34,501 bases of DNA from Promethearchaeota archaeon (GTDB lineage Archaea; Asgardarchaeota; Lokiarchaeia; Sigyniarchaeales; SOKP01), in assembly GCA_016840545.1 (NCBI GenBank), contig JAEOSD010000008.1:1-34501 (forward strand), read 5' to 3'. The notes beneath the pieces were generated by a model. The model was not told the DNA's origin and did not search any database. It was given only the letters and a program-made list of their open reading frames with translations. Position numbers and translations under genes: made by a program. Below are positions 15,359 to 34,501 of this stretch, piece by piece (the stretch's first letter is position 1; each line of letters opens with the position of its first letter).

Positions 15359-17005
15359 ATGACAAAATTTTCAATGATGACCCATCAATCAAGCATAATT
15401 GGGTCTAGAACAAGGGTAGAAGATTCTTGTGAATCTGGGCTTTGTCCAATTTGCATTACAGATTGCCCTGTATTTTGTGAAGTTTCAAAATCAGCATTAA
15501 GGGGTCGCGAGGTACTTTATCCACTGCGAGAACATTTCGGAAATTCTACTGCAGGAACCCCTAAGGATTTTGGATTATCTTATAGTGATTTTCAAATACA
15601 ATTTGAGGCTAGAGGAGTACAAGGTATTGAACCTGATGAAGATAGAGCAATTTTTCCAAATGTTGATCTAACAACATATTGGGGAAATATATTACAAAAG
15701 TATCCCATCGTTATAGCAGGATTAGGGAGCACTTATGTTGCAAAAAATAACTGGGAAGGTTTAGCTATGGGTGCGGCTTTAGCTGGAGTTAGTATTACCG
15801 TAGGAGAAAACGTTGTAGGTATGGATCCTTTTGCTAAATTCGCAAACCACGCCGTTTATCCTAAAGTAATTGATACAGAAGATATGAAATTTCGTGTTAA
15901 AACCTTCAGAGAATTTTGGGATGGAACACACGGAGATATTATAGTGCAGAAAAATGTAGAAGATACAAGATTGGGAGTTTTTGATTATGTATCTTCAAAA
16001 CTGGAGGTAAATGCACTTGAACTTAAATTTGGCCAAGGAGCTAAGGCTATTGGAGGAGAAGTTAGATTAGAATCTCTAAAAAAAGCACAATTATTGCAAA
16101 AGAGAGGATATTTAGTGTTTCCTGATCCATCCGCTCCCGATGTCATTGAACAGTGGAAAGAAGGATTAATTCCTGACTTTGAGAGACATAGTAGAGTTAT
16201 GCTTGCATCTACAAATGAGATTTTAGAAGAAATTGATCAAATTCGTTCGAAAGGAGTGAAAAATATCTTTATTAAGACAGGAGCTTATAGACCAGCTGCG
16301 ACAGCTTGGATAATAAGGTTAGGTGTAGAAGGGAAAGTTGATGGAATGACTTTTGATGGAGCCGGAGGCGGCACTGGAATGAGTCCTGTTGGTATGATGA
16401 ATGAGGGGTCTATACCGACAGTATATTTGGAAGCATTACTAGTTGGGTGTTTAGATATGATTAAACAGAAAAACCCTAATATTATATTGCCAACCATAGC
16501 AATAGCTGGAGGAATCGCAAATGAGACTCAAATTTTTAAAGCACTTGCTATGGGAGTCCCTTATATTACATGTGTTGCTATGGCAAGGGCTCCAATCACG
16601 GCGGCTATGAAAGGGAAATATGTTGGAGATGTTATTAAAAAAAATGAAGCTACTCATGCTTTATTAAGGAATTTAGGATTCCCCAAGGAAAAAGATCCAA
16701 GTACTTTAACTTTAAATGAAGCATTTGTCGAATATGATAACCTTCTTAGAGCTTACAATAGGGAGATTCCAACGTCAGCAATTGGAGTTTATACCTACTT
16801 TACGAGTAAACTGGGTATTGGGTTGAAACATTTATTAGCAGGAGTCAGAAAATTTAACTTAGACTTGATTACTAGAGATGATATTGCCTATATTTCTCAA
16901 CGTGCAGAAGATGTGTGCAGTACTTGGAAGTTGGGGATAAAATCACAAGAAAGTATAGATTTTGAATTAGTTAAAAAAGAAATATATTCAGGAAACTATG
17001 AATAA
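15359..17005 (+). CDS. FMN-dependent glutamate synthase-like protein
   Basis: A 548-residue protein matching the FMN/Fe-S synthase domain of glutamate synthase (GltS, PF01645). The barrel shows the flavin-binding stretch FDGAGGGTGMSPVGMMNEGS, a preceding LELKFGQGAKAIGG, and later IAIAGGIANETQIFKALAMG. There is no amidotransferase domain. The N-terminus carries five cysteines (C24, C29, C32, C36, C40) in a CxxC-rich segment that could hold an Fe-S cluster. Stand-alone archaeal versions are assumed to make glutamate from 2-oxoglutarate with ammonia supplied by a partner, or to act on another amide; the exact reaction is not fixed by sequence. It converges on the M3 peptidase with a 13-base gap. 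Confidence 0.85.
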   Translation: MTKFSMMTHQSSIIGSRTRVEDSCESGLCPICITDCPVFCEVSKSALRGREVLYPLREHFGNSTAGTPKDFGLSYSDFQIQFEARGVQGIEPDEDRAIFPNVDLTTYWGNILQKYPIVIAGLGSTYVAKNNWEGLAMGAALAGVSITVGENVVGMDPFAKFANHAVYPKVIDTEDMKFRVKTFREFWDGTHGDIIVQKNVEDTRLGVFDYVSSKLEVNALELKFGQGAKAIGGEVRLESLKKAQLLQKRGYLVFPDPSAPDVIEQWKEGLIPDFERHSRVMLASTNEILEEIDQIRSKGVKNIFIKTGAYRPAATAWIIRLGVEGKVDGMTFDGAGGGTGMSPVGMMNEGSIPTVYLEALLVGCLDMIKQKNPNIILPTIAIAGGIANETQIFKALAMGVPYITCVAMARAPITAAMKGKYVGDVIKKNEATHALLRNLGFPKEKDPSTLTLNEAFVEYDNLLRAYNREIPTSAIGVYTYFTSKLGIGLKHLLAGVRKFNLDLITRDDIAYISQRAEDVCSTWKLGIKSQESIDFELVKKEIYSGNYE

Positions 17006-21873: not shown

Positions 21874-22632
21874 TCACCATCCTATTTTTGGTTTCGAGAA
21901 TCTATAAAAGATTCCTTTGTATTTTGTTAAATCTTTAGAGAGATTAATAAGACTTAAGAAATTTATCAAATTTGAGGTATAATCCTTAGATACAGGCCCT
22001 AAACATCCTTCACAGGGTATTCCCTGTTCAATACAAATATGATCGCAGCCCTCCCTAGTTATTGGTCCTAAGCATAAAATTCCATTATCTAAAAAGCAAT
22101 TAGATTTCTCATTAAAAATTGTTAACTCATCATTTGATGGATTTAATTTGTTAACTGGTTTTTCAAAAGGAATATTATTATTTCCTCTTAGAGGGCATGA
22201 TGAGCATAGATTTTTTTCCGATAATTTTATTTCTTTATTTTCTATTAATCTTATTAAACAATTTCCTATTAGTTTTAAAGGAGGAGGACAACCAGGAATT
22301 ATACCATCGATTTGGACGACATCTGATATTGCACCTGCTTTTTTCTTTTCAGATAAACTTAAAATTCCCCCAAATGCTGCACAAGTACCTAAAGCATATA
22401 CTTTTTTTGCATTATTTCTAATATCTTTTAATAGTTCAATTTGTGAATCCATCGAAATACAACCTTCTATTAAAGCAATATCGCATTCTTCAATTTTATT
22501 CTCATCAGAGATAAAGGGAAAGTAAGAAAGTTTTATTCTTTCTAAAAACTGAGGAAATATATCACTTGAGAGTACAGAAGATATGCATCCACTACAGGAT
22601 GTAAGTGATGCTATTAAGATTTTAAGTTTCAA
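21874..22632 (-). CDS. mvhG: [NiFe] hydrogenase small subunit (Mvh-like)
   Basis: A 252-residue electron-transfer subunit. The proximal 4Fe-4S cluster is bound by C13 and C16 (TSCSGCISS), the Cys of GTCAAFGG, and the Cys of PGCPPPLKLIGN. The C-terminal half adds further cysteines (LCSSCPLRGN, NGILCLGPITREGCDHIC and PCEGCLGP) for two more clusters. There is no signal peptide, so the enzyme is cytoplasmic, as for group 3. Its start overlaps the end of the HdrA fusion by 11 bases, and the large subunit starts one base after its stop, so the three genes are translationally coupled. Confidence 0.92.
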   Translation of the reverse strand: MKLKILIASLTSCSGCISSVLSSDIFPQFLERIKLSYFPFISDENKIEECDIALIEGCISMDSQIELLKDIRNNAKKVYALGTCAAFGGILSLSEKKKAGAISDVVQIDGIIPGCPPPLKLIGNCLIRLIENKEIKLSEKNLCSSCPLRGNNNIPFEKPVNKLNPSNDELTIFNEKSNCFLDNGILCLGPITREGCDHICIEQGIPCEGCLGPVSKDYTSNLINFLSLINLSKDLTKYKGIFYRFSKPKIGW

Positions 22633-25168
22633 ATCTAATCTCCTCCGTTAATACGTTATAAAATTTATTTATTGCATTTGCAAATTTGGCACCTTCAACC
22701 GCATTCAGATTTTCTACTATTATCCTATTACTTAATCGGGGACCAAATACTTTCTTTAACAGGTTTACTTTTTTCTGAACTTTTTGAATTCCATCGATAT
22801 ATCTACACGCATCTTTTCTACAGCCAATAACCATTACACCATCAAATCCACACTCAAATGACTTAAGGATAAATTCAGTATCAATACGCCCTGTGCATGG
22901 TACTTTAATTATAAACACATTGGGATGATAGAATAATTTCTTTAATCCCGCATCATCTGCAGCAGCATAACCACAGGATTTACAGCAAAAAGCAATAATC
23001 ATTGGCTTTTTATTAAATTTAGAAAAAATTTCTATTGTTTTAAGTATTTTTTTGGAAGTATCAATATTTAAATCAATAGCATTTGTAGGACACACACTCA
23101 CACATGATCCACAGCCTTTACATTTAAATTTATCGATATTTATTTTATCTCCCCCGATTATTATGGCATTATATGGACAAGATACTACGCATAATCCGCA
23201 CAACCCACACTTTTCTTCATTTATTTTAATTCCTGTAAATTCTGATACTAAATAGTCATTTGAAAGAAGATAGATTATTTCTAAAGCTGTTTGATTTGTT
23301 GTAGAAATTGTAGATTTATAATTTAATGGTCCAAAAATTGTACCAACGCCATATATACCAGATGCTAAAGTTTCTCTACTCATGAAACCATTATCGTCTA
23401 AAGAAAAGTCCATGTATTTTCGAAGATTTTTTAAATCTTTGTTGGGAATATACTTAAGGTTTAATACTATCAAATCACTTAGAAATTCAGTATCATCAGC
23501 AACAACATAGTTTATATCTTTAATACTTTTAACAGAAATATGATTAGCATAAATAAATTTAGGGTTAGTTGATCTTAATAAAATCTGATCCTTATCACTT
23601 AATTTACTCAAATCATAAAAAACATTAACTTTACATTTAGTATTTCTTATTTTAATATCCTCAATATATTTTTGTGCTAAAATTTCAGAGTAATCTGAGA
23701 TTAATTTTGAAGGTCCGACCTCTTGAAGAATAGAAACCGAATTAACTGGTTTCTTGTCTGATATTCTTAATAATTTCCCTTCTGTAATACCATCAGAAGA
23801 TAATATACGCTCAAATTCAGGTGAAGTAATAATATTATTTTGAGGATTATAATTGTAATCCTTTAAGTTATCACTAAAATCTGCCCCGATAGCTATAACT
23901 TTTACACCAACCTTAATTCGGACTTTTTCTGGTTTTTCATTTAAATTAATTGCATTATTAATACAAGCTCGTTCACAAATCCTGCAATCGAGACAATCTT
24001 CAATATCTTCGTGATCAATTAAAGGGATATATGGATATGAATTCTGAAAAGGGATATATATAACTTTTCGATATGACAGACCAAAATCGTATTGATTCTT
24101 TTTCTCTTTACCACAAACATTAACGCATTGTTTACATCCGGTACATTTCTTTTCATCTATATAGCGAGGTTTTTTAATTAATTCAATTGTAAAATTTCCC
24201 ACTTCTCCTGAGATTGTTTCAATTTCGCTATTTGTAAATATATTGATATTCTTTTCTTTGACTATTTCTCCAATCAATTCTGAAGTGAAACAAATAGAAC
24301 AATCACCCATCTCAGAGATACGGTGCCATCTAGCTACTTTACCCCCTAATGTTGGTGATTTTTCAATAAGATATACTTTTATTCCTGCTTTTGATAAATT
24401 CAGTGCTAAAGTCATACCTGCAATACCACCCCCTAATATTGCACAAGCTTTCTCAACTTCAACCGTTTTAATTTGAACTTCCTTTTGAAGCTTTACACGT
24501 TCAATTCCTGCTTCTATTAATAATTCTACTTTTTTTAGAATTAGATCCGCACTAAATTTTTCGAGATTTGAATCATGAACCCAGCAGCATTGCTCCCTAA
24601 TATTTGCAATTTCTATATTTGTATGTTCAATCACATCTTTAAAGATACGTTCAAAAATATGTTGGTGTGTTTTTGGAGAACAAGCTGCAATTACTACTTT
24701 ATTTAGAAAATTTTGTTTTGCCCAAGATGTGATTTTATTCAAATTCTTTTCTTGACATAAATTATCAAATTTCTTGACAGAAACAACATCATTTAACTTT
24801 GCAATATACCTCTCTAATATTTCAATATTAATAACATTAGAAATTTCAGTATTACAATCACAGATTATTACTCCTATACGATTTATTATATTTCCTCTTT
24901 TATCCAAATATTCTAATTCTTCGCCTGATAAAATACGTTTGTTTAAACTTATTATATTTAATACTCTTTTACCATCTTCTGTCAAAAAATAAGATTTTTT
25001 ATCTTTACTGATCAATGACCCAAGCTTTTTTAAGTGGAAATTTAATTGCCCCGTTTGGGCTAAACCCAATTTTTCCATTAAATCGGTATAAGGAATGAAT
25101 CCCTCTCTTTCCAAAAGTAAGAGAATCTTTCTACGAAAAGGATGTGATAATATTGAGTAAATATTCAT
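22622..25168 (-). CDS. hdrA: Winged-helix/HdrA/MvhD fusion flavoprotein
   Basis: An 848-residue fusion. Residues 1-75 are an ArsR-like winged helix (MNIYSILSHPFRRKILLLLE and LGLAQTGQLNFHLKKLGSLI). Residues 97-645 are HdrA: FAD-binding GGGIAGM near 246-252, PTLGGKVAR, two 4Fe-4S motifs (CTGCKQC...C at 342-352, CLDCRIC...C at 392-402). Two more ferredoxin clusters lie at 654-664 and 683-693. Residues 722-805 are MvhD, with CCKSCG, PCTGR and GCRKDAC. HdrA bifurcates electrons from the hydrogenase to ferredoxin and a second acceptor, in methanogens HdrBC; none is encoded here. The start ATG at 25168 has a strong Shine-Dalgarno ggagg (25177-25181). Domain assignment is firm; a regulatory role for the winged helix is inferred. 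Confidence 0.92.
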   Translation of the reverse strand: MNIYSILSHPFRRKILLLLEREGFIPYTDLMEKLGLAQTGQLNFHLKKLGSLISKDKKSYFLTEDGKRVLNIISLNKRILSGEELEYLDKRGNIINRIGVIICDCNTEISNVINIEILERYIAKLNDVVSVKKFDNLCQEKNLNKITSWAKQNFLNKVVIAACSPKTHQHIFERIFKDVIEHTNIEIANIREQCCWVHDSNLEKFSADLILKKVELLIEAGIERVKLQKEVQIKTVEVEKACAILGGGIAGMTLALNLSKAGIKVYLIEKSPTLGGKVARWHRISEMGDCSICFTSELIGEIVKEKNINIFTNSEIETISGEVGNFTIELIKKPRYIDEKKCTGCKQCVNVCGKEKKNQYDFGLSYRKVIYIPFQNSYPYIPLIDHEDIEDCLDCRICERACINNAINLNEKPEKVRIKVGVKVIAIGADFSDNLKDYNYNPQNNIITSPEFERILSSDGITEGKLLRISDKKPVNSVSILQEVGPSKLISDYSEILAQKYIEDIKIRNTKCKVNVFYDLSKLSDKDQILLRSTNPKFIYANHISVKSIKDINYVVADDTEFLSDLIVLNLKYIPNKDLKNLRKYMDFSLDDNGFMSRETLASGIYGVGTIFGPLNYKSTISTTNQTALEIIYLLSNDYLVSEFTGIKINEEKCGLCGLCVVSCPYNAIIIGGDKINIDKFKCKGCGSCVSVCPTNAIDLNIDTSKKILKTIEIFSKFNKKPMIIAFCCKSCGYAAADDAGLKKLFYHPNVFIIKVPCTGRIDTEFILKSFECGFDGVMVIGCRKDACRYIDGIQKVQKKVNLLKKVFGPRLSNRIIVENLNAVEGAKFANAINKFYNVLTEEIRFET

Positions 25169-25513
25169 TTCAAAATCCTCCCTCTTTCTCTTTTATTATG
25201 GTTTTTTTCTTAATTTTTAATTTTTGATAAATTTATTTTTCCTCATGATAATGATTGTTATCGAATTATTTAAATCTTTGTAAAATATTGATCATATAAT
25301 GTATGAGATTTATAGTCCACATTATGAATATTAGTCATTTTTTTGTTAATTTTAGATATAACTAAAAAAATTGTCATATTAGAGTTTTTGATTAAAAAAT
25401 TTATCAAATTTGAAGAAATTATTCTTGTCAAATTCCTTTTATTTTGGTAAAATAATCATTTACTTAGAAAGTAAATTACTTGTAAATTTAAACTTAAAGA
25501 GGTGTATAACTTA
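25169..25513. promoter_or_regulatory. Divergent promoter region of the redox island
   Basis: The 345 bases between the two oppositely transcribed redox operons hold no gene. They are extremely AT-rich and contain several inverted repeats (gataa/ttatc at 25247-25262, and two tight ones at 25439-25476) plus the Shine-Dalgarno sequences at both ends. TATA boxes cannot be pinned down in such AT-rich sequence. Shared control of both operons from here is an inference from position. Confidence 0.5.
25439..25476. promoter_or_regulatory. Paired palindromes, candidate operator
   Basis: Two perfect inverted repeats lie side by side: ttatttt-ggt-aaaataa (25439-25455) and atttactt-aga-aagtaaat (25458-25476). 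Their centres are 20 bases apart, about two helical turns, as expected for a dimeric regulator bound twice on one face. They are about 40-75 bases before the start at 25514. Confidence 0.4.
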
Positions 25514-26131
25514 ATGGAAGTTTTGGAATTTAAACCAATAAGAGACAAAAAAATCGTAGTATATATGTCATCTAAAGAGAATGCTAAATATTTCCAAAAT
25601 ACTGATAACTCTAAACTTATAGAATTTTTAAAAAAGAAAAATATTGACTTTATCACTGTTGATTTTCAAGTTGATATAAAAGAATTCAGAACAACACCAT
25701 TTGCTCAAACATTAAATGAACTAGACATACCATATTTTCAATTAGATATTCCAGATTATGCTATGGGGTATCTATATCAGGAAATTATTGAAAAACAACA
25801 ATTTCTAAATGAATTGTTTGAAGAATATGAAAATATGGAAGATAAAGAATCGTTTAAAGGGCTTAGTTTAAAAAATTGGATAGATATGTTGGGGGAGGAA
25901 ATTCAGGAAAGAGAAATTTTTCTTAGTTTAAAATTAAGACCTCAATGGATTGTTAAAAAAATGTTAGATTTAGCATTATCTTACAAGAAAGATACTGTGA
26001 CATTTGTTCATTTTGTTCAAGAAGATATCTGTGAAGATATTTGTCCGCAAGTAGTTGAAAATTTAAGAGAATTAAAAGTTAAAGTTATATCTTATAATAA
26101 AAAACATACAATTCAAAATATAATATTTTAA
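25514..26131 (+). CDS. Unknown protein, first of a paralogous pair
   Basis: 205 residues from ATG 25514, chosen over GTG 25502 because the Shine-Dalgarno gaggtg covers that GTG. It begins MEVLEFKPIRDKKIVVYMSS. The layout parallels the next gene: an N-terminal strand after a VLExKP motif, a DIPYFQLDIPDYA segment matching GIPFKHTDISENA, a long charged helical middle, and an alpha/beta C-terminus. Both recall the TraB/GumN fold in outline, but this copy has no His at the expected C-terminal motif (HFVQEDICEDI), so it may be inactive. It is the first gene of the rightward operon; its role is unknown. Confidence 0.65.
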   Translation: MEVLEFKPIRDKKIVVYMSSKENAKYFQNTDNSKLIEFLKKKNIDFITVDFQVDIKEFRTTPFAQTLNELDIPYFQLDIPDYAMGYLYQEIIEKQQFLNELFEEYENMEDKESFKGLSLKNWIDMLGEEIQEREIFLSLKLRPQWIVKKMLDLALSYKKDTVTFVHFVQEDICEDICPQVVENLRELKVKVISYNKKHTIQNIIF

Positions 26132-26154: not shown

Positions 26155-26880
26155 ATGCCAGAAGTATTAGAATTAAAACCTTTAAAAAATAAGAATTTAA
26201 AGTTAATTTTAATTGAGAGTGAGTTTCCTATCGACTGGTGGTTTGAAGTACCCAAGGATTATAAAGAAGATCTTTTTTGGAATCTTCATTTAATTTCTAA
26301 GGAATACCTTGAATTAATTAATTCGTTAATAAAAAAATATAACCCGAATTTTATTTTAGAAGAAAGACCAAATTCATGGAGTGAAGAACTGAATGCAAAT
26401 GATCCTTTAAAAATGCTTATTAAAAAACGTGGAATTCCGTTTAAACATACTGATATTTCAGAAAATGCTGAATTATATCTCTCTTCAGCGTTAGATGAAC
26501 ACAGGACCATAGTTAAGAATCTCGAAAAAAGGATTAATGGTATAATGAAAGAATTTAAGGAAAAACCAGAAAATGATGAATTTTTTCAACGTTTGGTATT
26601 ATGGAAAGAATATTTACAATTAGATTACAATAGTCAAGAAGATGAAGTCAGATATAAGGTTCGAGAAGCATGGATGATGATGAATATTTTAAAGTTTGCA
26701 AAAGAATTTGAAGGAAAGAAATTGAAATGTTTATTCATATGCGATCCTCGACACTTTAACGGTCTTGAGAAACTTTCATTGGATCTTGGTATTGAAACCG
26801 AACAAGTGAAAATAAGTAGAAGGATTAAAACTGAAGGAGTCGGAGAAATCTTTGAAAAAGATTTAGAAATTGATATTTAA
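26155..26880 (+). CDS. Unknown protein, second of the pair, TraB/GumN-like outline
   Basis: 241 residues starting MPEVLELKPLKNKNLKLILI, with a Shine-Dalgarno gaggcg upstream. A motif FILEERPNSW (E-x-x-R-like) follows the first alpha/beta part. After a long helical region come REAWMMMNILKFAKEF and KCLFICDPRHFNGLEKL, which resemble the conserved R-x-x-x-M and G-x-x-H segments of TraB/GumN/EreA-type proteins. The match is by eye and remote. It is a diverged tandem copy of the preceding gene and lies 37 bases before the MtdB-like gene. It might be a helper of C1 or redox enzymes; this is not established. Confidence 0.65.
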   Translation: MPEVLELKPLKNKNLKLILIESEFPIDWWFEVPKDYKEDLFWNLHLISKEYLELINSLIKKYNPNFILEERPNSWSEELNANDPLKMLIKKRGIPFKHTDISENAELYLSSALDEHRTIVKNLEKRINGIMKEFKEKPENDEFFQRLVLWKEYLQLDYNSQEDEVRYKVREAWMMMNILKFAKEFEGKKLKCLFICDPRHFNGLEKLSLDLGIETEQVKISRRIKTEGVGEIFEKDLEIDI

Positions 26881-26917
26881 TAGCTAATTTTTATTAAAAA
26901 AAAAAGAGCTGATGTAA

Positions 26918-27913
26918 ATGGTAGAAAGAGAACTTGAAAATATTCTTGGAAAAAAGTCAATAATAGAATTAACACCCATTATTATTAAGAAGAAAGATAC
27001 CTCCGATAAAATTTGCTATTTTTTTGATACTGATGATAATGCATCTCCATTCGATATCAATATGGCATATGATGCCGGTTTTGATGTTGTAATCCCTTAC
27101 AATAATATAAAAGCTGATAAAGTAACTCAATTAGTTCAAGATGCAATGTTTTCGAGAAAAGCAAGCGCTCCAACGGTTTATTTTATTGGTGGTTCCAATG
27201 TAGAAGAAGCTAATAAGATAGCTGAAACTGTCTTAAATTCGCTTGTGCCTCCTTTTGAATCTCCTGTAATCATAGATCCAAGAGGGGCTAATACAACCGC
27301 AGCAGCAATGGTTGCTAAGACTATAGAAGTTACTCGAAAACTAGGATGGCATGATATCTCTGGTAAAAAAGTTGTCATTTTAGGAGGTACAGGTCCAGTT
27401 GGACAAATTGGTGCAATTTTAGCTGCAAAGCTTAATTGTACTGCTGTAATGACATCTCGAAGGGCGGATACTGTCAAGATATTAGCAAAGAACTTAACTG
27501 AGAAAGCAGGAGAAGGAGCAACCGAAATTATTGGTGCTGTAGGGATTACTGATGAGCAAAAATATAACCTTCTTAAAGAAGCTGATATTATTTGGTCTGT
27601 AGCTAAAGCAGGAGTCCAAATGGTTTCGAAAGAACTATTAGAAAAATTACCTAACAATAAGATCGTAGTTGATATCAATTTAGTGCCTCCCTACGGAATT
27701 GAGGGATTAAAACCAAAATTTGAAGGTGATGAAATAATTCCAGGAATTTATGGAATTGGAGCTTTAGGTGTCGGGAGATTGAAATACAAGACTGAGAGTA
27801 ATATTTTTAAAGAGGCATCAGAGAGCAAAGGTAAAAAAATCTTTAATTATAACAACGCATTCAAACTTGCATGTAGGATTCTTTTCGACGAAGAAATTCA
27901 GATTACAGCTTAA
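26918..27913 (+). CDS. mtdB: Methylene-tetrahydromethanopterin dehydrogenase, MtdA/MtdB type
   Basis: A 331-residue enzyme that oxidises methylene-tetrahydromethanopterin (or the folate form) to the methenyl form with NAD(P)+. Hallmarks are FDTDDNASPFD (36-46) and YDAGFD in the pterin-binding domain, RGANTTAAAM (122-131), the Rossmann loop ILGGTGPVGQIG (154-165) followed by SRR (180-182), and IYGIGALGVGRLK near the end. The Arg pair suggests NADP preference, an inference. Methanogens use an F420-dependent, unrelated Mtd, so a nicotinamide-dependent version beside NfnA and an NfnB fusion suggests direct coupling of C1 oxidation to NADPH. Shine-Dalgarno gctgatg lies upstream. Confidence 0.88.
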   Translation: MVERELENILGKKSIIELTPIIIKKKDTSDKICYFFDTDDNASPFDINMAYDAGFDVVIPYNNIKADKVTQLVQDAMFSRKASAPTVYFIGGSNVEEANKIAETVLNSLVPPFESPVIIDPRGANTTAAAMVAKTIEVTRKLGWHDISGKKVVILGGTGPVGQIGAILAAKLNCTAVMTSRRADTVKILAKNLTEKAGEGATEIIGAVGITDEQKYNLLKEADIIWSVAKAGVQMVSKELLEKLPNNKIVVDINLVPPYGIEGLKPKFEGDEIIPGIYGIGALGVGRLKYKTESNIFKEASESKGKKIFNYNNAFKLACRILFDEEIQITA

Positions 27914-27991: not shown

Positions 27992-28879
27992 ATGGTCTAT
28001 AAAATTTTGATGAAAAAAGAATTAGGAAGTAGTGGAACGTTATTTGAAATAGAATTAGCCACGCCTTTAATTGCTAAAAGGGCGCGTGCTGGAAATTTTA
28101 TTTTAATCAGAATAAATGAAAAAGGAGAGAGGATTCCTTTAACTATTGCTGACTATGATCGAGAAAAAGGAACAATAACGATTGTTTTTCAGGTTATTGG
28201 TAAAACTACAAAGTTATTATCAACATTAGAAAACGGAGATTTCCTTCTTGATGTTGTTGGGCCTTTAGGAAATGAAATTCATATAAAAAAATTTGATTAT
28301 CCTGTGGTAATTATTGGAGGTGGAGTTGGTATTGCTCCATGTTACCCTCAAGCAAAGGAATTGAAAAAAGCAGGAAACAAGATAATTTCAATTATTGGCG
28401 CAAGGAGTAGCGAATTATTATTTTGGAGAGAAAAAATGGAAGAAGTTAGTGATGAGTTAATAATTTGTACAGATGATGGAACCGAAGGGAAAAAGGGTTT
28501 AGTTACTGAACCCCTTAAGGAACTTTTAAAGAGAGAGTCTTTAAGTCTAGTTATTTCTATAGGGCCATTAATTATGATGAAATTTGTAGCTCTAACGACA
28601 AATGGGTATGAAGGATTACCTAAAGTAAAAACGATGGTTTCTCTAAATACTATTATGATTGATGGTACTGGCATGTGTGGAGGATGCCGATTTTCCACAA
28701 TAGATGGGAAAATATACTTTGCATGCGTGGATGGCCCTGATGTAGATGGTCATATGGTAGATTTTGATAATCTTATAAAGCGTGCTAAGAGATTTATGGA
28801 TCAAGAAAAAGAGAGCATTGAACTCTATGAACATGAATGTAGGGCTGTAGAAAAACTCAAAATGGGAGGTTCATTTTAA
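27992..28879 (+). CDS. nfnA: NfnA-like ferredoxin-NADP oxidoreductase alpha subunit
   Basis: A 295-residue FAD and [2Fe-2S] subunit of the NfnAB/sulfide dehydrogenase family. FAD is held at RIPLTIADYD (47-56). NAD(H) binds at IIGGGVGIAPCYPQAKEL (107-124). The C-terminal DHODB-type cluster has Asp224, Cys229, Cys232 and Cys245 (DGTGMCGGC and FACVDGPDVDGH), the Asp-plus-three-Cys arrangement known for NfnA. NfnAB couples NADPH to NADH and ferredoxin by flavin bifurcation. The partner NfnB starts one base after its stop and is fused to extra domains. Confidence 0.92.
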   Translation: MVYKILMKKELGSSGTLFEIELATPLIAKRARAGNFILIRINEKGERIPLTIADYDREKGTITIVFQVIGKTTKLLSTLENGDFLLDVVGPLGNEIHIKKFDYPVVIIGGGVGIAPCYPQAKELKKAGNKIISIIGARSSELLFWREKMEEVSDELIICTDDGTEGKKGLVTEPLKELLKRESLSLVISIGPLIMMKFVALTTNGYEGLPKVKTMVSLNTIMIDGTGMCGGCRFSTIDGKIYFACVDGPDVDGHMVDFDNLIKRAKRFMDQEKESIELYEHECRAVEKLKMGGSF

Positions 28880-28880
28880 A

Positions 28881-31667
28881 ATGGAGAATCAAACAACAAT
28901 AATTAAAATTTTATTAGATAATAAACAGAAGATTTTGAAAGCAGCAAAATTCGATAAACCAGAGTTTGATAGCTTAATTTCCAAACTAAATAAAGCTGAA
29001 GAGCAAAGAAAAAAGCTATTACAGAAAATTAAGGATATTGGAGAACTTAATATAGAAAAATTAAGTCATGATTTAGGAATTTCGCGTTATAAATTAACAT
29101 TAAAGATCGATTACTTAAAAGAATTAGGATTTTTAAAAGCTGTCGGAAAGGAATCACGATTTTTCCAATATTTATTGGATGAATATAGATCTAAGGGTAT
29201 TTTTCCTAACGTATCTATTATTAAAGAAAAGAACCTATGTTGCAATTGTGGATTATGTGTTTCTGTATGTCCTTTAAATGCTGTTAAGTATTCTGAGGAT
29301 ACTTTTGAAGTCATTAAGGAAGATTGTATCAATTGTGGATTATGTTTTGCATGTTGTCCGAGATCATTTTTTCCAATAACTCTCAAATTTATTAAAGAGA
29401 ATGAAGATATAAAAACTAAATTTTCTGATCAAATAAATTATTATCGAGAAGTCTATACTGCCCAGACAAACGATAATCAAATAATTGAAGTTGCTCAAGA
29501 TGGAGGTATTGTAACAAGCTTATTAAAGACTGCTTTTCAAGTAAATATGATTGATTGTGCTTTGGCTGTTGGATTAACAAATAAACCACACAAGCCAGCA
29601 CCTATCTTCGTTGAAAATGTAGATGATTTATTAAAAACGGCTGGGACAAAATATAGTAATACACCGTCTTTAAAAATTTTACATGAATCTAAAAAATATA
29701 AAGATATTGCGATAGTGGGGACTCCTTGTATAATGGAGGGGCTTAAAAAAATATCCATCTATCCATTTAGCGAACCTTTTTATGATAATATCGCTATAAA
29801 AATTGGATTATTTTGTATGGAATCATTTGATTACTCACAAATTTTAGAGCTGTTAAAAAATGAATTTCAAAAACCTGCTGATGATATTATTAAAATGAAT
29901 ATAGATAAAGGTAGATTTCTTGTTTATAGTAAAGATGGTACTTCGTTAGATGTTCCTTTAAAAAAAGTCAAAAAATATGGAAGACTGGGATGTTTTTTCT
30001 GTGATGATTTGACTGCTGAACAAGCAGATATATCAGTAGGGTCTATTGGTTCTGAACCGGGATGGTCAACTGTTATAATTAGGACTCAAAAAGGTGCTGA
30101 TCTATTTCAAAAAGCATTAGATTTAAAAATAATCGAAAAGAAAGAAATTAAGGAAGATAATAAAAGCTTTGTTTATTTAGGACGGATAGCTAAGTCAAAA
30201 AAGAAAACATATAAGGAAGGGCGTAGGCCCAAAATGATTGAACAAGATCCTAAAGAAAGAATAAAAAATTTTGAGGAGGTTCCTTTAGGATTAACTGAAG
30301 AAATGGTGAAATTAGAAGCTCAAAGATGTTTACAATGCGGGAGGCCTTTATGCATTAAAGGGTGTCCAGTAAATATTAATATCCCTGAATTTATTAGATT
30401 AATCAAATTAGGTAAAAATGCTGATGCATTACATCTAATTAAAAGAGATAATTTATTACCAGCGATTTGTGGAAGAGTTTGTCCTCAAGAAACCCAATGT
30501 GAAGAAAAATGCCTATTAAATTCACTTGGAGAACCTATTTCAATCGGTTATTTAGAAAGGTTTCTTGCTGACTGGGAAAGAAAAAATAAGCTTAAAGAAT
30601 GTCCTGACTGTCAACCTTCCAATAATATTAAAGTAGCTGTTATTGGATCTGGACCTGCTGGGTTAACATGTGCGGGCGATCTTGCAATGAAAGGTTATAA
30701 TGTTACTCTTTTTGAAGCTTTTCATGCAGGTGGAGGAGTATTGGTCTATGGAATACCTGAATTTAGATTGCCTAAGGAAATTGTTAAAGATGAGATTGAA
30801 ACTTTGAAAATGCTTGGTGTTAAGATTAATTATAATACTATTATTGGTAAGGTTTTAACTCTAGAAGATTTAAAAGAAGAGGGTTTTAGGGCGTTTTTCA
30901 TAGGTGTTGGAGCAGGGCTTCCTATGTTCCTAAGAATTCCTGGATTAAGTTTGAATGGTGTTCTAACAGCAAATGAATTTCTAACAAGATCTAATTTGAT
31001 GAAAGCATATAGATTTCCAGAATATGATACACCAATAAATGTTGGAAAGATAGTTACTGTTATTGGTGGTGGGAATGTTGCTTTAGATTCTGCCCGAACC
31101 GCTCTAAGATTGGGCTCTGATAGAGTTATAATCGTTTATAGACGATCTGAAAAAGAAATGCCAGCAAGACTTGAAGAAATCCATCATGCAAAAGAAGAAG
31201 GTGTTGAATTTCAATTTTTAACAAATCCTACAAGAATCATTGGTGATGAGAATGATAATGCTATAAAAATGGAGTGTCTTAAAATGAAATTAGGAGAACC
31301 AGATGATTCAGGAAGGCGAAGTCCTATCCCCATTAAAGATTCAGAATTTATAATTGAAACTGATACAATAATACTTGCAATTGGAGCTTTAGCGAATCCT
31401 GTTCTAACAAAATCAATCCCTGATTTAATATTAAACAAATGGGGTTATATCGTAGCTGATCCTGATGGAAGGACGAGTATAGAAGGTGTATATGCTGGAG
31501 GAGATATAGTTACTGGAAGTGCTACAGTAATTTCTGCTATGGGTGCGGGAAGAATATCTTCATTAGCTATTGATAAATATCTTAGAAACAAGTTTCTGAA
31601 TAAGGTAGATTCTATTGTAATTAAAATGATGGAAATTAAGCCAATTAAGAGAGGGCAGATAAAATAA
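28881..31667 (+). CDS. Fusion of wHTH, 2x[4Fe-4S], FrhB and NfnB/GltD
   Basis: A 928-residue fusion. Residues 40-100 look like a winged helix after a coiled helix (LNIEKLSHDLGISRYKLTL, then KIDYLKELGFLKAVGKESRF). Residues 118-162 form a ferredoxin with two 4Fe-4S sites (CCNCGLCVSVCP and CINCGLCFACCP). Residues 190-435 are FrhB, the F420-oxidising flavin subunit (VAQDGGIVTSLL, GTPCIMEGL, CFFCDDLTAEQADISVG). Residues 455-928 are NfnB/GltD, with N-terminal Fe-S cysteines (CLQCGRPLCIKGCP), FAD loop GSGPAG (589-594) and NADPH loop GGGNVALD. It likely couples F420H2, ferredoxin and NAD(P)H with NfnA. The domain order is clear; the physiological direction and the winged-helix role are inference. Confidence 0.9.
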   Translation: MENQTTIIKILLDNKQKILKAAKFDKPEFDSLISKLNKAEEQRKKLLQKIKDIGELNIEKLSHDLGISRYKLTLKIDYLKELGFLKAVGKESRFFQYLLDEYRSKGIFPNVSIIKEKNLCCNCGLCVSVCPLNAVKYSEDTFEVIKEDCINCGLCFACCPRSFFPITLKFIKENEDIKTKFSDQINYYREVYTAQTNDNQIIEVAQDGGIVTSLLKTAFQVNMIDCALAVGLTNKPHKPAPIFVENVDDLLKTAGTKYSNTPSLKILHESKKYKDIAIVGTPCIMEGLKKISIYPFSEPFYDNIAIKIGLFCMESFDYSQILELLKNEFQKPADDIIKMNIDKGRFLVYSKDGTSLDVPLKKVKKYGRLGCFFCDDLTAEQADISVGSIGSEPGWSTVIIRTQKGADLFQKALDLKIIEKKEIKEDNKSFVYLGRIAKSKKKTYKEGRRPKMIEQDPKERIKNFEEVPLGLTEEMVKLEAQRCLQCGRPLCIKGCPVNINIPEFIRLIKLGKNADALHLIKRDNLLPAICGRVCPQETQCEEKCLLNSLGEPISIGYLERFLADWERKNKLKECPDCQPSNNIKVAVIGSGPAGLTCAGDLAMKGYNVTLFEAFHAGGGVLVYGIPEFRLPKEIVKDEIETLKMLGVKINYNTIIGKVLTLEDLKEEGFRAFFIGVGAGLPMFLRIPGLSLNGVLTANEFLTRSNLMKAYRFPEYDTPINVGKIVTVIGGGNVALDSARTALRLGSDRVIIVYRRSEKEMPARLEEIHHAKEEGVEFQFLTNPTRIIGDENDNAIKMECLKMKLGEPDDSGRRSPIPIKDSEFIIETDTIILAIGALANPVLTKSIPDLILNKWGYIVADPDGRTSIEGVYAGGDIVTGSATVISAMGAGRISSLAIDKYLRNKFLNKVDSIVIKMMEIKPIKRGQIK

Positions 31668-34046: not shown

Positions 34047-34501
34047 TTATGTTTCATCATTTGTCAATATCGCTGAAGTAGTTTTCCATGATTTCAATTT
34101 GTTTATCATGTTTTGCTCTGTTCTTGTTATTTTTGATTGAGAGTATTGCGTAATTTTTTCTTTCATTTTATTTTTAATGGTGTTATCCATTCTTAAACAC
34201 TTAATTATCCCTGTTTTAATTGCTCTATCAACTATATCCTTTCCTTTTTTAGTTCGAGTTATTACAGTTGTAAATTTATCTTCGGAACCTAATCCTCCAA
34301 AAGAGACATCAGCATAAATGTTAGTAAAATCTTTGCAAACTCCACAAGCGGGGCGCATATAATCAGTTAAACTTTCAAAAGGCACATGAATCTTTTTTTG
34401 GGGCGCTTTATGATTTTTTAATTCAATAATTAAATTTTCTTTAATATTTATTCTCTGAATATTTTTGAATTTAATTTTAAATTGTTTCTCAAATTGTGTC
34501 A
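34047..34501 (-). CDS. FrhB-like F420 hydrogenase beta subunit, 5' end off window
   Basis: The frame is open to the right edge, so only the C-terminal 150 residues are seen. The segment YMRPACGVCKDFTNIYADVS followed by FGGLGSEDKFTTVITRTKKG is the diagnostic C-terminal half of FrhB/FdhB proteins, which bind FAD and F420 and carry an Fe-S cluster. A lysine- and threonine-rich extension follows (NKMKEKITQYSQSKITRTEQ). It is separate from the FrhB domain in the 928-residue fusion and points toward another F420-linked enzyme lying beyond the window. The GTG at 34385 is internal, not the start. Confidence 0.85.
   Translation of the reverse strand, partial: TQFEKQFKIKFKNIQRINIKENLIIELKNHKAPQKKIHVPFESLTDYMRPACGVCKDFTNIYADVSFGGLGSEDKFTTVITRTKKGKDIVDRAIKTGIIKCLRMDNTIKNKMKEKITQYSQSKITRTEQNMINKLKSWKTTSAILTNDET

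Follow-up and report, generated by a model that had tools for sequence, protein, structure and literature searches.

The window, as we call the whole 34,501-nucleotide stretch of Lokiarchaeota DNA analysed here, contains a gene of 928 codons that encodes a helix-turn-helix (HTH)-like domain, a ferredoxin (Fd) domain, an FrhB-type F420 oxidoreductase and an NfnB in a single chain, located directly behind the gene for NfnA. The features of this region are listed below.

25502..26131, + strand: unknown protein, a frequent companion of the MtdB-like gene
26155..26880, + strand: unknown protein; several relatives have it in one chain with the MtdB-like domain
26918..27913, + strand: MtdB-like methylene-H4MPT dehydrogenase (Mpt_N, E 5e-26), 78 bases before nfnA
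27992..28879, + strand: NfnA with FAD, NAD(H) and [2Fe-2S] sites (5jca_S, 301 bits; Xfn 5vj7_B, 163 bits; PRK06222)
28864..28870, + strand: GGGAGGT, the ribosome-binding site for the fusion, situated within nfnA and 10 bases ahead of the start codon
28881..31667, + strand: HTH-ferredoxin-FrhB-NfnB fusion, 928 aa (open reading frame, Pfam, NCBIfam and 26 further full or near-full homologues)
28881..29195, + strand: HTH-like N-terminal domain, residues 1-105 (predicted helices; alignment with standalone Fd-FrhB paralogues)
29217..29366, + strand: ferredoxin domain with two [4Fe-4S] clusters, residues 113-162 (Pfam Fer4; invariant Cys)
29451..30155, + strand: FrhB F420 oxidoreductase, residues 191-425 (Pfam; alignment to 8riu_B and 3zfs_C; ligand positions according to PMC3591093)
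30171..30248, + strand: FrhB-NfnB linker, residues 431-456, surviving as a scar in some relatives
30249..31595, + strand: NfnB, residues 457-905, with two [4Fe-4S] clusters, bifurcating-type FAD and an NADPH site (NCBIfam, PDB matches, Foldseek)

The fusion gene and its neighbours

The reading frame at 28881-31667 (+ strand) has no internal stops. Pfam recognizes FrhB_FdhB_N at residues 191-267 (E 7e-20) and FrhB_FdhB_C at 274-425 (2e-42), followed in the NfnB half by Fer4_20 at 460-570 (2e-40) and Pyr_redox_2 at 584-890 (1e-36). The NCBIfam model gltA/NfnB TIGR01316 scores 591 bits against a cut-off of 472, and the NCBIfam FrhB model and the NfnA-NfnB models likewise match the fusion. Against PDB sequences, the NfnB half scores 560 bits with 4ylf_B and 534 bits with 5jca_L; its AlphaFold model, with a pLDDT around 90, reaches a TMt of 0.91-0.92 to 5jca_L/4ylf_B in Foldseek. 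Sequence and fold together indicate that both cluster sites and the FAD and NADPH domains typical of NfnB are present. Ferredoxin, FrhB and NfnB in one chain beside NfnA, as the initial annotation had described, are thus backed by the domain models and by the uninterrupted frame. That annotation had also considered a frameshift joining two separate genes; such an artefact, or a chimeric assembly, is ruled out, since in 26 genomes the same architecture is encoded without interruption of the frame.

NfnA matches PRK06222 with 371 bits (cut-off 220) and contains both the FAD/NAD domain and the [2Fe-2S] motif. Its stop at 28879 lies one base ahead of the ATG of the fusion, whose ribosome-binding site falls within nfnA, so the two genes are very probably translated together. 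NfnA is located immediately 5' of the fusion in every locus with a sequenced 5' flank (in one genome, G134, the contig ends there). A CDC48 AAA ATPase gene follows the fusion, and in several genomes glutamate dehydrogenase genes lie downstream of NfnA-NfnB; this dehydrogenase and the MtdB-like protein are candidate sources of NAD(P)H. The unknown and MtdB-like genes at 26155-27913, separate in the window, form a single protein of 554-556 aa in several relatives (e.g., L062, 4720-6381).

Other genes of the window are described here for completeness. An HdrA-FlpD/MvhD fusion is encoded at 22622-25168; it has a winged helix (DUF7347) at its N-terminus, adjoins MvhG-like and MvhA-like hydrogenase genes, and is kept near the NfnB fusion in G016, G142 and G136. 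A divergent glutamate-synthase FMN-domain protein without a PDB relative lies at 15359-17005 (PF01645, 39 bits), and in the host family it occurs together with genes for GMP synthase and an M3 peptidase in the vicinity of nfnAB. A further Fd-FrhB gene at 34047-34499 is interrupted by the end of the window and is found complete elsewhere (L060, 13647-14801).

Cofactor sites, the N-terminal domain and F420 in the host

In none of the 27 aligned fusions is any of the 20 Fe-S cysteines replaced; eight of them lie in the ferredoxin domain, four in FrhB and eight in NfnB. The cluster ligands of the ferredoxin domain are Cys 120, 123, 126 and 130 and Cys 149, 152, 155 and 159, and Cys283, 312, 371 and 374 of the FrhB module align with Cys104, 134, 192 and 195 of Methanothermobacter marburgensis FrhB. 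In the latter protein, F420 is contacted by the IGKGK loop and by S209-V210 (PMC3591093). According to the alignment, the loop of the fusion reads IDKGR (residues 341-345), with one Lys kept and the second replaced by Arg, and the counterpart of S209-V210 is Ser388-Ile389, the same as in 8riu. Both the F420-loop and the flavin-side residues are conserved among the fusions; loss of the F420-binding residues, an outcome against which the initial annotation had set its proposal, is not seen in the alignment, where they appear intact. Comparison of close relatives gave dN/dS values of 0.17-0.38 in FrhB, which indicates that this module is maintained; the corresponding ranges are 0.09-0.25 (ferredoxin domain), 0.09-0.18 (NfnB) and 0.28-0.57 (N-terminal domain).

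The N-terminal domain is also the module with the lowest conservation in the 27-sequence alignment. It is probably a helix-turn-helix: a three-helix core is predicted (helices 26-53, 58-65 and 69-82) with fair local pLDDT of 79-88. A Pfam search gave no match, a fold search with a three-sequence model returned AsnC/DeoR/ROK-type matches that were all non-significant (E>0.6), and the best HTH fold matches had E values of 1.6-4 and a probability up to 0.89, several structural neighbours being DNA-binding domains, none of them significant. Of the "winged-helix-like start" noted earlier, the HTH-like core therefore stands as a prediction, without a significant match to a known domain. Fd-FrhB proteins that occur unfused in the same genomes begin with a homologous domain, so this one arrived together with the FrhB module. 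Being common to such proteins, it lends no support to the idea of a second regulatory fusion in this locus, and a docking role is as possible as a regulatory one.

The host appears to make F420, as judged from its genes. Its genome carries CofE and CofD about 700 bases apart on one contig (C199), as well as an F420-dependent Mtd, and CofD occurs in 64 of the 65 genomes of its family (f1). In a second family, f2, in which NfnB is standalone, CofD is missing from seven of eight genomes. No canonical F420:NADP reductase (Fno) was found above the cut-off in the 65 genomes of family f1, including that of the host, these genomes being incomplete; across the phylum, Fno exceeds the cut-off in 28 of 228 genomes, none of them in f1. 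An Fno-like protein below the cut-off (70-95 bits) occurs in several members of the family, mostly in genus g16.

Distribution, single origin and secondary loss

Full or near-full fusions were found only in family f1 in a whole-protein search of 228 genomes of the phylum. This survey gave a comparison set of 27 fusions in 26 genomes belonging to genera g1, g10, g11, g14, g15 and g16; database records name two of these genomes as Candidatus Lokiarchaeota. A second copy, 67% identical, is present in the host genome on a different contig. Among the matches listed in a scan of named genomes, at least two were fusions, both from Lokiarchaeota. In the phylum of a Methanoperedens MAG, 164 of 394 genomes contain an NfnB-level match; no FrhB-NfnB fusion was seen among the matches listed, all of which start at residue 415 or later and are without FrhB. 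A 1154-aa frame from this phylum was rejected as a fusion candidate, as it is a standalone NfnB. A different arrangement was noticed at L065 (6713-9463, - strand), where a ferredoxin, an NfnB/GltD domain and an HdrB-like CCG domain form another large fusion; this gene faces an aldehyde ferredoxin oxidoreductase gene and adjoins the second type of NfnA-fusion locus.

In the FrhB tree, the modules from 26 fusions group in a single clade (100/100), which lies within a wider set of HTH-Fd-FrhB proteins that these archaea encode in non-fused form; the majority of these non-fused proteins share 36-47% identity with the FrhB half from the window. The fusion therefore arose once; as read from these sequences, nfnB acquired an already assembled HTH-Fd-FrhB gene in one event. 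Some of the non-fused genes (L118, 1122-5655; also L100, L101, L103, L104 and L112) stand in tandem with a second FrhB of roughly 370 aa, and upstream of the pair lies a gene for a polyferredoxin-like protein, possibly marking a further F420 enzyme.

In the NfnB tree, five standalone NfnB proteins fall inside the fused clade: G018 beside the fused G003 (100/97), G009 beside the fused G007/G022 (94/97), and the group G008/G014/G002 (95/96). A clade of fused proteins only is rejected (p-AU 0.00015), which fits losses within the fused clade. The N-termini of these proteins bear scars. Those of G018, G014 and G002 retain the FrhB-NfnB linker, and those of G009 and G008 retain the fusion's first 17 codons, the match continuing into upstream DNA; for each of the five, none of 500 shuffled tails reached the real score. 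On this sequence record, the FrhB half disappeared from some relatives by in-frame deletion after the fusion had formed. There were at least two such losses and perhaps three, the lower bound being set because the scars of G008 and G009 are almost the same yet placed apart in the tree. At the nfnB starts of L087 and L089, these nearly identical 5' scars accompany NfnB parts from different clades, suggesting recombination or a wrong branch. The remaining standalone NfnB proteins of family f1, which bear no scar, may be older. Relatives that deleted the FrhB half kept NfnAB, so the F420 link is dispensable to them, and sister species with and without this half, separated by clean in-frame deletions, constitute a natural experiment.

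Proposed reaction, alternatives and known systems

In F420-dependent sulfite reductase (Fsr) and in the Ca. Ethanoperedens complexes, an Fd-FrhB unit links F420 to the partner enzyme via ferredoxin clusters (PMC10229431, PMC11493965); taken together, the simplest reading of the fusion is that it connects F420 with NfnB on the ferredoxin side. With moderate confidence, we propose that the fusion and NfnA constitute an F420-linked Nfn wired in this way. Hydride would be exchanged between F420(H2) and the FrhB FAD, and electrons would travel singly from the FrhB [4Fe-4S] cluster through the two clusters of the ferredoxin domain to NfnB, whose distal and proximal [4Fe-4S] clusters they would reach at the docking site that soluble ferredoxin uses in ordinary Nfn. 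NADPH would meet these electrons at the NfnB FAD, the other branch leading through the NfnA [2Fe-2S] cluster and FAD to NAD+; soluble ferredoxin possibly enters via the same clusters. The net reaction would most likely be 2 NADPH + NAD+ + F420 <-> 2 NADP+ + NADH + F420H2, and reversible. The fusion, its single origin, the conserved F420-site and cluster residues, the adjacency of NfnA, the F420 biosynthesis genes and the lack of canonical Fno are read from the sequences, whereas we infer this path, the complex with NfnA, the direction and the coupling. The F420-NAD(P)H link put forward earlier is the best reading. The full-length model (pLDDT 74, pTM 0.56) does not fix the seating of the FrhB half on NfnB.

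By our own arithmetic, the net reaction amounts to about +8 kJ/mol at standard state (F420 -360 mV, NAD(P) -320 mV). Physiological NADPH lies at about -370 mV. With NADH at -280 mV, this gives about -19 kJ/mol, which favours F420 reduction, so that bifurcation would not be strictly required. The NADH value comes from PMC9304861. With F420 near -360 mV, transfer from physiological NADPH is near isoenergetic, and F420, unlike ferredoxin, could be reached without bifurcation. More tentatively, and with the odds somewhat against it, F420 may replace ferredoxin, via the covalent FrhB, as the low-potential partner of a bifurcating Nfn, NADPH being split between NAD+ and F420. According to a 2018 review, the low-potential acceptor of flavin-based bifurcation had until then always been ferredoxin or flavodoxin (PMC5861303).

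The most serious alternative, which we nevertheless regard as unlikely, is a non-bifurcating F420:NADP(H) exchanger that replaces Fno and to which NfnA and NAD+ contribute little. The closeness of the NADPH and F420 potentials, the missing canonical Fno across the 65 f1 genomes and the precedent of Pyrococcus Nfn2, a non-bifurcating Nfn-type enzyme (PMC5861303), speak for it. However, NfnA is always retained beside the fusion, both NfnA (301 vs 163 bits) and the NfnB half (534 vs 492 bits) are closer to bifurcating NfnI than to Xfn, and the sub-cut-off Fno-like protein (70-95 bits) occurs in several family members. It is improbable that the Fd-FrhB half is a ferredoxin:F420 oxidoreductase attached to an ordinary Nfn, passing electrons from soluble ferredoxin to F420 while the halves work side by side: the ferredoxin domain could admit soluble ferredoxin, and FpoF is reported to catalyse such transfer (PMC9012536), but retention of the fusion across six genera suggests that the halves are wired. 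An F420-dependent glutamate synthase, in which NfnB would act as GltD and pass F420 electrons to GltB, is very improbable, because the invariant partner is NfnA rather than GltB and the genome yielded only partial, weak PF01645 matches and no full-length GltB domain, even though glutamate synthases linked to FrhB have been described (PMC9012536, PMC3591093) and the window holds the divergent FMN-domain protein at 15359-17005 (39 bits). Least credible of all is an FrhB module that relays or docks electrons without binding F420: FrhB-fold proteins with other substrates exist (5dqr, a weak match), but the F420-loop and flavin-side residues are conserved and CofD is present in 64 of 65 family genomes.

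Among known systems, NfnAB (NfnI; Thermotoga maritima 4YLF/4YRY, Pyrococcus furiosus 5JCA/5JFC) shares, by sequence, the NfnA and complete NfnB core, the clusters, the flavins and the adjacent genes, and these bifurcating enzymes are the best matches of both NfnA and NfnB. In contrast to NfnAB, NfnB here bears an extra 450-residue HTH-ferredoxin-FrhB half, and F420 is a possible partner at the ferredoxin side. The nearest PDB relative of the Fd-FrhB half is the Ca. Ethanoperedens CODH zeta subunit (8riu_B, E 3e-55), whose purified complex reduces F420 (PMC11493965). In this subunit (8RIU), and probably in FwdI (8RJA), an Fd domain likewise precedes an F420-reductase domain, wiring F420 to the clusters of another enzyme; there, however, the F420 reductase is a separate subunit on CODH or Fwd, whereas in the window it is fused to NfnB. 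Fsr (7NP8, 7NPA) has the same Fd+FrhB architecture (PMC10229431), joined N-terminally to a catalytic enzyme through Fe-S clusters, but its catalytic half is a siroheme sulfite reductase instead of NfnB. HdrA-NfnB proteins (HdrA9-11, type III HdrA; ANME-1 and related archaea) also carry NfnB/GltD in chain with a flavin/Fe-S protein, their ferredoxin site being thought to be repurposed; in them NfnB is hosted by HdrA, which has a bifurcating FAD of its own, FrhB is absent, and the HdrA thioredoxin-reductase FAD domain was not found in the fusion by Pfam or NCBIfam. HdrA2B2C2 of Methanosarcina acetivorans is a bifurcating enzyme that uses F420H2, but as hydride donor, with ferredoxin as low-potential acceptor and with HdrA instead of NfnB.

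In the open-licence literature, HdrA-NfnB fusions and FrhB gene clusters were found and no description of an FrhB-NfnB fusion; judged by its sequence, the protein would represent an Nfn that has an F420 input, and we found no prior description of such an input there. If the proposal is true, this would be the first enzyme known in which F420, NADPH and NADH meet within a single complex, and it would show how F420-using Lokiarchaeota without canonical Fno pass electrons from F420 to NAD(P)H or back. The architecture suggests one hub for electrons that connects carriers not linked by any described Nfn enzyme.
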